From the NCBI GenBank assembly GCA_902386555.1, contig CABMJJ010000009.1, positions 213,680 through 277,679 of the forward strand: a DNA stretch of 64,000 nt, given 5' to 3'. How positions within the stretch are numbered: the first letter of the stretch is position 1; each line of letters begins with the position of its first letter. The translations under genes were made by a program, and so were the position numbers. The stretch comes from Candidatus Bilamarchaeum dharawalense (GTDB taxonomy: Archaea > Micrarchaeota > Micrarchaeia > Anstonellales > Bilamarchaeaceae). The notes under the pieces were generated by a model. The model made no database searches. It had not been told where the DNA came from and saw only the letters and a list, made by a program, of their open reading frames with translations. Shown here in pieces: positions 57,074 to 58,402 of this stretch.

Positions 57074-58231
57074 TTATTTGCTGTTTTTCATATACCTGGC
57101 TACTCTATCCATTGCCTCATTTATTTGTTCTGGCGATCCGAGGAAAACAACTCGGAAGTATTTGCCCTTGTCGGTTGGCAGGAAACCAGAACCAGGAACC
57201 GTGACCACTCCTTCCTTGAGAAGCCCCCGGACAAATTCTGCATCATTTTTCCAAGGACCATCAACTTTTATGAATGCATAGAATGCACCTTTAGGCGCAG
57301 CCAAACTTAGTCCCGGAATTTCCTTCACTCGTTTTGCTAAAATGTCTCTTCTTTTTTTGAGATCGGCATTGAATTTGGCAATGTGATCATGGGGCCCTTT
57401 TAATGCAGCCATATAGGCACGTTGCATTTCCCAGTTTACAGAAAGTCTCTGGTTACATAAACGTTGGAGTGCATCCTTCATTACGCTCCATTGTTCTCCA
57501 TGAAATGCAATATAGCCAACTCTGGCACCGGGATAGATGTAGTTTTTGGAGATTGAGTTACCGGAAACCAGTGGAACATCCTTGTGGATCGTTCTTAGGT
57601 TTGTATATTCGCCATCAAAAACAAGTTTTTCGTAGGCATCATCAGAAATTATCGGGAGGTTGTGTTCACCGGCAATATCAACAATTGCTTCCAGTGTTTT
57701 TCTGGAATAGACAGAACCAGTTGGGTTGTTTGGATTTATCACCAACAGTGCCCGAGTATATTTGGTAATACTCTTACGAAGATTATCAACATCAGGCTCG
57801 AAATTGGAATCGCAATCATAGAATTCTATGGTACCATAACTAAGACGTTGTTTTGTAAGATAAAGAGGGTAGGTTGGGACTGGAAGAAGGATGTTTCTAC
57901 CTGGGTCCACCAGTGCTTGAAATAGGAAATCAATACCTTCGCTTAAACCAGAAGTAACAAAAACATCTTCCGGTGCAACTTTTTCATAGTTTGCAATTGT
58001 GCTACGAAGCTCTGGATCGCCTTCTGATGGTGCATAGCCAGAATAATTTTGCTTAAGGGCTTCGGCAGCAGCATCAAGAATGTGTTGCGGTGGTCTAAAA
58101 CCAAATGGCGCCGGATCACCAATGTTAAGATAGATCATTTTGGTGCCCTGCTTTTCCAAACGTTTTGCCTCCTGAACAATATCACGAATTGGATATGAAA
58201 CTAATTCGCTTCTTACTGATGGTTGAATCAT
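57074..58231 (-). CDS. PLP-dependent aminotransferase (class I/II)
   Basis: The 385-residue protein has the fold type I pattern: YLNIGDPAPFGFRPP, GYAPSEGDPELR, VTSGLSEGIDFL, VINPNNPTGSVYS, PIISDDAYE and the PLP lysine in SISKNYIYPGARVGY. It is probably an alanine/aspartate-type transaminase; the exact substrate is uncertain. The SD GGAGG seven bases before the ATG is part of a 10-base segment that can be hidden in a hairpin (58234-58309). Confidence 0.9.
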   Translation of the reverse strand: MIQPSVRSELVSYPIRDIVQEAKRLEKQGTKMIYLNIGDPAPFGFRPPQHILDAAAEALKQNYSGYAPSEGDPELRSTIANYEKVAPEDVFVTSGLSEGIDFLFQALVDPGRNILLPVPTYPLYLTKQRLSYGTIEFYDCDSNFEPDVDNLRKSITKYTRALLVINPNNPTGSVYSRKTLEAIVDIAGEHNLPIISDDAYEKLVFDGEYTNLRTIHKDVPLVSGNSISKNYIYPGARVGYIAFHGEQWSVMKDALQRLCNQRLSVNWEMQRAYMAALKGPHDHIAKFNADLKKRRDILAKRVKEIPGLSLAAPKGAFYAFIKVDGPWKNDAEFVRGLLKEGVVTVPGSGFLPTDKGKYFRVVFLGSPEQINEAMDRVARYMKNSK

Positions 58232-58233
58232 TT

Positions 58234-58309
58234 GAAAACCTCCGTTTGTTTTTTAGTGGAGGTTTTCGATCCCAATCGAAGAATCAACTTCAATTAGTTG
58301 AAAACCTCC
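58234..58309 (-). promoter_or_regulatory. Candidate SD-sequestering switch before aminotransferase
   Basis: In the minus-strand direction, segment a GGAGGTTTTC (58300-58309) is followed by b GAAAACCTCC (58258-58267), then c GGAGGTTTTC (58234-58243), which is the SD of the aminotransferase. Segment b can pair with a or with c, not both. This gives an antiterminator-like ON/OFF choice. A short ORF spans a to b, so its translation could decide the fold. Confidence 0.6.
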
Positions 58310-58315
58310 TTTCAT
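58253..58315 (-). CDS. Candidate leader peptide, 20 aa
   Basis: An ATG at 58315 opens MKGGFQLIEVDSSIGIENLH, which ends at a TAA 21 nt before the aminotransferase start. It covers segments a and b of the switch, so a ribosome on it would block the a-b or b-c hairpin. No run of one amino acid is seen, so a classical attenuator is not implied. It could also be chance. Confidence 0.4.
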   Translation of the reverse strand: MKGGFQLIEVDSSIGIENLH

Positions 58316-58402
58316 GGTCCTATAGGAATATCACTACCAAATTAACTAATCAAATAGGGGATGGAATGTTTTTATTGCTGTTGATACGTCAGACGTCGAT
58401 AG

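Follow-up and report, generated by a model that had tools for sequence, protein, structure and literature searches.

The leader of a class I/II aminotransferase gene, located in a 64,000-nucleotide window of the Candidatus Bilamarchaeum dharawalense genome (contig CABMJJ010000009.1; the window is the whole stretch of DNA analysed, and coordinates refer to it), is, on the evidence of sequence comparisons, a member of a family of dispersed structured RNA elements not described before, which are found at start codons and are confined to a single genus of Micrarchaeota. The family is probably best explained as an insertion element, which adds to the target gene a masked ribosome-binding site (RBS), coupled to the translation of an upstream leader open reading frame (ORF). 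A first-pass annotation of the site had described three 10-base segments, a, b and c, with b pairing either with a or with c, the Shine-Dalgarno sequence of the gene, and translation or a ligand choosing the hairpin; it had not recognised that the site belongs to a set of about 50 dispersed copies, for which there is evidence of insertion next to start codons. The switch belongs to this dispersed family, whose core is formed by the b-c pairing and by a hairpin, P2, and not to an a-b-c arrangement at one gene.

A family of elements adjoining start codons

The pattern GATCGAAAACC..GGTTTTCAA was found in 12 copies in genome G014 and in one copy each in G010 and G000, upstream of unrelated genes and partly in tandem arrays. 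A covariance model, R1, built from 10 sequences, detected dozens of further copies in the family; a second model, R2, which includes P2, was built from 30. Training sequences, among which the aminotransferase element is present for both models, match their own model by construction. By using R2 at E <= 0.01, copies were detected in 10 of the 17 genomes of the genus, and the two models give about 50 copies in all, with about 20 in one genome; the rest of a set of 301 genomes of the phylum gave weak single matches only. Four good copies are present in the genome under study, before aroA, the aminotransferase, FEN1 and a small kinase gene, with a weaker one before NAC. Each copy lies directly 5' of an ATG, and the genes involved (uL11, uL14, uS14, L39e, Nop10, eRF1, FEN1, aroA, V-ATPase D and F, and others) are unrelated; gene names were read by eye from the translated starts, without database searches, except for the aminotransferase.

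When a pattern devoid of the ATG was compared with 85,000 species genomes, all 18 matches in Micrarchaeota had an ATG within 1-3 nt downstream; in other organisms an ATG adjoined about 2 of the 17 matches. The bacterial and Methanoregula matches were rejected as family members, being mostly located away from start codons, and several of those from Clostridia form a different long hairpin. A virus-borne origin was also rejected, as the pattern is absent from viral contigs. Rfam searches at the gathering threshold, performed on the window and on 20 element loci, revealed only tRNAs and no match to the element, and a literature search for such elements in Micrarchaeota returned nothing relevant.

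In G014 near-identical units are found at unrelated genes and in tandem arrays. Six tandem units of 63-68 nt each precede Nop10 (locus L106, positions 1750-2170; G014 C70), most of them with a 23-codon leader ORF ending as ATGA on the next unit; one unit is broken by Ns. Arrays of another hairpin repeat (AAAAGGAGATTAGAAAAGAACCTTGGTTCTTTT and its variants) are located in the same genome 5' of many elements, upstream of start codons (L036, L038, L091, L092, L179); at L179, a HD-domain gene, a repeat of this type occupies the position where G010 has the element. Metagenome-assembled genomes of Clostridia contain a multi-copy repeat, TTTCTTTGGGGATACAAAACCCCGTTTCTTTT..GAAAGAAATGGGGTTTTGA, which shares the core motif, folds into a long nested hairpin and is mostly not adjacent to start codons (L111, L113, L122, L129 and L140 in Oscillospiraceae RGIG2067; L115 and L130 in Clostridia BRZ_DS bin90).

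Conserved structure of the element

The aligned core (alignment A2) reads 5' arm-TGGGG-ATNN-AAAA-CCCCA-3' arm-~18 nt-GNGGG-TTTT-N'-0 to 4 nt-ATG; outside the aminotransferase copy, b corresponds to most of the P2 loop together with the P2 3' arm. The closing pair of b-c, in which the base preceding AAAA faces the one following TTTT, is G-C in 16, C-G in 10 and A-U in 2 of 30 sequences, the other 2 being unpaired; the same picture, with three mismatches, was obtained when the pair was tabulated again by gene. This covariation supports the early claim that b pairs with c, the strand which carries the aminotransferase Shine-Dalgarno sequence. Within the P2 arms, 7 of 10 pairs vary on both sides (CCAAG/CTTGG against CTAAG/CTTAG is one example); columns 12 and 25 form a G-C pair in 23 sequences and a C-G pair in 6. 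The covariation score was 0.261, against 0.125 after shuffling and at most 0.088 when slid.

P2 and b-c can be either alternatives or parts of a coexisting H-type pseudoknot (3-nt loop 1, 5-bp stem 2), because the invariant CC of b is common to both. Their predicted energies are close in many copies. The V-ATPase D copy of G011 has a wholly different P2 (CATGCTGG/CCAGCATG) and retains C-AAAA/TTTT-G, with the CC/GG part broken and 5 bp kept; the sequence of this copy leans towards the pseudoknot. An extra hairpin is found in the P2 loop of some copies (ScpB, PurD, FEN1, the phosphoenolpyruvate (PEP) synthase of G012, ferredoxin). At L108, L100, L081, L188, L182 and L178 such hairpins (GTCC..GGAC, GTCGCGAAC..GTTCGCGAC) lie between GGGGAT and ATNNAAAA, with AT on both flanks, and may be another small insertion element, which covaries independently.

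About half of the copies lack segment a; where an a-like strand is present, it serves as the RBS of the leader ORF. Three copies (G014 C2, G012 nucT, G015 RpoL) have different end bases in a and c, and in each of them b agrees with c rather than with a. Since b follows c where the two differ, b-c is the selected pairing and a-b a local feature, and a family-wide a-b pairing was rejected. The compensatory changes in related genomes, which the first-pass annotation had named as support, were thus found for b-c and P2 and not for a-b. In most copies the competing partner of b is the 5' arm of the local P2 hairpin; in the aminotransferase copy, with its weak P2, segment a is the competitor instead.

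Leader ORFs

Of 39 copies, 33 have an ATG-initiated leader ORF running across b, as compared to 17.9±2.9 in shuffled sequences (a count reached by none of 1000 shuffles), and in 12 the leader overlaps the gene start as ATGA, as compared to 3.6±1.8 (again reached by no shuffle). These contrasts are supportive rather than exact, copies within one genome being related, and somewhat overstated, since shuffling also destroys the conserved motif. The reading frame over the motif differs among copies, so that RWGSKTPLR, QDGDRKPVL and YGRIQNRHE are encoded by one RNA motif, and the leader peptides are not conserved across the family, unlike those of an amino-acid attenuator. Because the frame varies, continuous translation, and not the peptide, appears to be what is retained, and a peptide-sensing leader was rejected on these grounds. 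As to the proposal that translation or a ligand chooses the hairpin, translation of the leader ORFs, which run through b in most copies, would be the more likely factor; a ligand riboswitch was rejected on gene content, since ribosomal proteins, V-ATPase, FEN1, aroA, eRF1 and the other targets share no common pathway.

Insertion at start codons

In 12 of 16 genomes the uS17 and uL14 genes share an ATGA overlap; a 60-nt element separates them in G012, and its leader again ends as ATGA on uL14. Nine of the G012 copies stand at sites with a counterpart in the sister genome G013, and the G013 site is empty in all nine cases. At uS14, comparison of the two genomes revealed an exact 59-bp insertion, with an 8-bp direct repeat, TTATGAAG, over the start codon (filled site ...GTGATATTTATGAAG / ACTTATGG...GGGTTTTGC / TTATGAAGCTG; empty site GTGATATTTATGAAGCTG). 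Both marks of a transposable element, empty sites and direct repeats of the target, are therefore found, in the nine empty sites and in the uS14 duplication. At the uS14 insert no terminal inverted repeat stood out, though a parent element was not looked for systematically. Element-bearing genes start with ATGAA in 20 of 42 cases, against 22% of the starts in G013, taken as a rough baseline.

Genes with the Y1_Tnp domain (IS200-like) are present in 5 of the 17 genomes of the genus (G010, G011, G012, G014, G015), including 4 of the 4 with at least 6 elements and 1 of the 13 others, a co-occurrence which is a lead, not causal evidence. No elements were found beside these genes, whose ends carry unrelated hairpins, at variance with repetitive extragenic palindromes (REP) associated with RAYT transposases, and a Y1/IS200 transposase was rejected as the mover. 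An archaeal bulge-helix-bulge intron was set aside, given the internal position of the conserved pairs and a spacing between c and the ATG which fits translation.

The aminotransferase leader

The features of the site are reported in Table 1. The best NCBIfam match of the gene product is alanine aminotransferase PRK08363, with a score below the cut-off for that entry; orthologs are present throughout the genus, and that of G014 has a similar element in its leader. On the minus strand the leader reads ATGAAA-GGAGGTTTTC-...-GATC-GAAAACCTCC-ACTAAAAAACAAAC-GGAGGTTTTC-AA-ATG, the final ATG being the aminotransferase start, at 2 bases from c. The three segments, their coordinates and the 20-codon ORF over a and b are as first annotated. 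The 10-mer GGAGGTTTTC occurs exactly 3 times in the 1,273,724-base genome, always within 76 bases of this leader; as about 2.4 scattered occurrences are expected at random, the cluster is not due to chance. The 20-codon ORF stops 22 nt upstream of the aminotransferase ATG. The stop codon of a putative TTG-initiated leader frame overlaps the aminotransferase start as ATGA, and this frame matches that of the leader peptides ..RWGSKTPxR..RVFK (stop) of G010 and G014.

Table 1. Features of the aminotransferase leader and gene
Feature	Position	Strand	Evidence and remarks
TATA-like box CAATAAAAAC	58368..58377	-	upstream of a and b; conserved in element-free orthologs
Leader ORF MKGGFQLIEVDSSIGIENLH (stop), 20 codons, ATG start	58253..58315	-	crosses a and b
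Whole element (leader RBS strand a, P2 remnant, b, RBS strand c, start codon)	58229..58309	-	R1 match, E 7.9e-12
Segment a, GGAGGTTTTC	58309-58300	-	RBS-like upstream copy; alternative partner of b in this copy; unconserved across the family
Alternative leader frame ..RLGSKTSTKKQTEVFK (stop), TTG start	58228..58293	-	putative, read from sequence; weak start codon
R2 match in the element	58229-58284	-	E 4.6e-11
Degenerate P2 hairpin, TTGGG / ATCGAAAA / CCTCC	58258..58275	-	alignment A2, pair counts, energies
Segment b, GAAAACCTCC	58267-58258	-	anti-RBS strand; invariant AAAACC core (alignment A2)
Segment c, GGAGGTTTTC	58243-58234	-	aminotransferase Shine-Dalgarno strand; pairs with b (sequence; family b-c covariation)
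Class I/II aminotransferase gene, 385 aa	57074..58231	-	ORF; PF00155, E 4e-58; start codon 58231-58229; 3' of the element

The 151-nt leader region folds at -39.3 kcal/mol, as compared to -28.3±3.9 in shuffles (z -2.85). In silico, the mean pair probability is 0.55 for a-b and 0.45 for b-c, and without segment a that of b-c climbs to 0.996. Most other copies have a strong P2, TGGGG / ATNNAAAA / CCCCA, in place of the degenerate one found here. The claim that b pairs with a or with c thus holds for c across the family; as a prediction of folding models, a bistable a-b/b-c arrangement stands for the aminotransferase site only, where a is plausibly the remnant of an earlier tandem unit.

A promoter-like block, GACGTATCAACAGCAATAAAAAC, ending in CAATAAAAAC, is common to the element-free orthologs of the genus, and is located here upstream of a and b. 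The distance between the TATA-like box and the start codon is 48-83 nt in the element-free relatives and 145 nt at this site. Because this conserved block sits upstream of both segments, a, b and c should all be contained in the aminotransferase mRNA, and a transcription start downstream of a and b, pointed out at the outset as fatal to the switch, is made unlikely. Just 5' of the TATA-like box, at 58380-58398 (minus strand), a CGTCNNNNGACGTAT-like block, conserved in several orthologs, resembles a transcription-factor operator.

Discussion

In the mechanism that we propose, the element, which measures about 50-60 nt, or about 80 nt when the leader RBS is counted, would insert at start codons in one genus of Micrarchaeota. 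After insertion, the old RBS, start codon and first codons of the gene would stay upstream and begin the leader ORF, and the insert would supply P2, strand b and a new RBS, c, directly 5' of the recreated start codon. Within the transcript, pairing of b with c would mask the gene start; it would comprise 5 bp if b reached c from the P2 loop in an H-type pseudoknot, and 7-10 bp if the two strands formed a hairpin incompatible with P2. A ribosome on the leader ORF would pass through P2 and b, freeing c; leader translation would end at or near the gene start, often as ATGA, and the gene would be translated by coupling. This course of masking, opening and restart is the simplest reading. In the aminotransferase copy P2 would have decayed, and strand a, an RBS copy resembling the end of an earlier tandem unit, would compete for b. 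What the sequences establish is the dispersal of the element, its position, the covariation, the excess of leader ORFs and the empty sites; masking, coupling and transposition are our inferences. More tentatively, and with slightly less than an even chance of being right, the elements may be seen as tiny mobile units which target start codons, duplicate the start, convert the old one into a leader ORF and bring their own pseudoknot-masked, coupled RBS, and which could in this way spread within essential operons while keeping or tuning expression.

Several observations, besides the overstated shuffle contrast, weigh against this explanation. The CC never varies, and covariation cannot separate the pseudoknot from mutually exclusive hairpins; the 8th pair is unpaired in six copies. 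An ATG leader ORF across b is lacking in 6 of 39 copies, and many leaders stop 12-25 nt short of the gene, without overlap. A clean target duplication is found at uS14 only, the repeats at nucT (ATGAAGGCA/ATGAAAGCA), uL14 and G015 C3 being imperfect; no transposase is linked to the movement of the element, and no filled/empty pair of close relatives directly shows insertion at the aminotransferase site.

The strong covariation and the close energies of P2 and b-c would also suit a cis-regulatory RNA, either a riboswitch or a protein-binding leader, which senses a signal and is inherited vertically, its mobility being only apparent and its leader ORF incidental. Orthologous placement in at least two genomes, at uL11, ScpB, PEP synthase, RpoL, pilin, nucleotidyltransferase and V-ATPase D, points in the same direction. 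Such a regulator is nevertheless unlikely, given that its targets would be functionally unrelated genes, that copies at unrelated genes in G014 are near-identical, that G013 lacks the element at each of the nine G012 sites compared, and that no conserved aptamer exists beyond the pairing itself, nor any Rfam match.

Tandem arrays with dispersed near-identical copies, the clean uS14 insertion with its duplication and the presence of Y1_Tnp genes in all genomes with at least 6 elements, against 1 of 13 others, could alternatively reflect a neutral mobile repeat, i.e. a DNA hairpin similar to REP or to miniature inverted-repeat transposable elements, devoid of a regulatory role and surviving only where it supplies a usable RBS and ATG. 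A neutral hairpin, however, would need neither an RBS-masking closing pair kept by compensatory change nor leader ORFs kept open in different frames, and the Y1_Tnp genes have unrelated ends of their own, with no element alongside; we regard this possibility as improbable. There is very little probability left for a three-segment switch private to the aminotransferase, with leader translation or a ligand making a-b and b-c alternate. In its favour, a-b and b-c are in balance at this copy and a lies inside the leader ORF; against it, the element is not private to this gene, and family-wide b tracks c, not a.

REP/RAYT and other short palindromic intergenic repeats, as well as Rickettsia palindromic elements, are tiny dispersed hairpins in gene-dense genomes. 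The present family resembles REP/RAYT and Rickettsia palindromic elements in this respect and in having both tandem and dispersed copies; it differs from them in always abutting a start codon in sense orientation, in the compensatory RNA pairing to the RBS, in the target duplication and in the absence of a linked transposase among our findings. In the plasmid rep genes repY-repZ of ColIb-P9 and IncL/M repA, which are under leader-peptide and pseudoknot control, the pseudoknot activates expression, an antisense RNA exerts control and one locus is present per plasmid. The element shares with rep leaders a short leader ORF, the translation of which remodels an RNA switch with a pseudoknot near the RBS (for the element, as proposed), and differs in occupying dozens of chromosomal loci. 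Works on the control of these two rep systems are cited in PMC10724649.

The opening of base-paired or pseudoknotted start regions by upstream translation is an established mode of coupling, termed UTNI (PMC6728339; review PMC12548453), as exemplified by atpHA, rplJL and the IF3-L35-L20 pseudoknot of E. coli (PMC6728339, PMC12548453). There, the downstream RBS pairs with upstream translated sequence, sometimes as a pseudoknot, and upstream translation opens the pairing. In the element, pairing of the RBS with upstream sequence is supported by the closing-pair covariation, and translation of that sequence, with opening of the pairing, is proposed. In those cases an ordinary gene provides the upstream partner and the pairing arose in situ, whereas the element would be a dispersed module including leader ORF, pairing strand and RBS. 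Termination-reinitiation at ATGA is similarly established in archaea and bacteria (PMC6728339), and the ATGA overlaps of the leaders match it; plain ATGA coupling lacks the structured RBS and the leader of about 20-25 codons, made by insertion in the proposed mechanism.

Little is known of structured RNA regulators in DPANN archaea, and the present one falls outside the families of Rfam. If the proposed explanation is correct, a regulatory RNA which spreads as a unit to exact start codons would permit a direct study of how genes gain translational control. It would also offer a window on the survival of gene order in coupled operons, such as uS17-uL14, after insertions, and dozens of short translated leader ORFs would be predicted, which genome annotation would miss.
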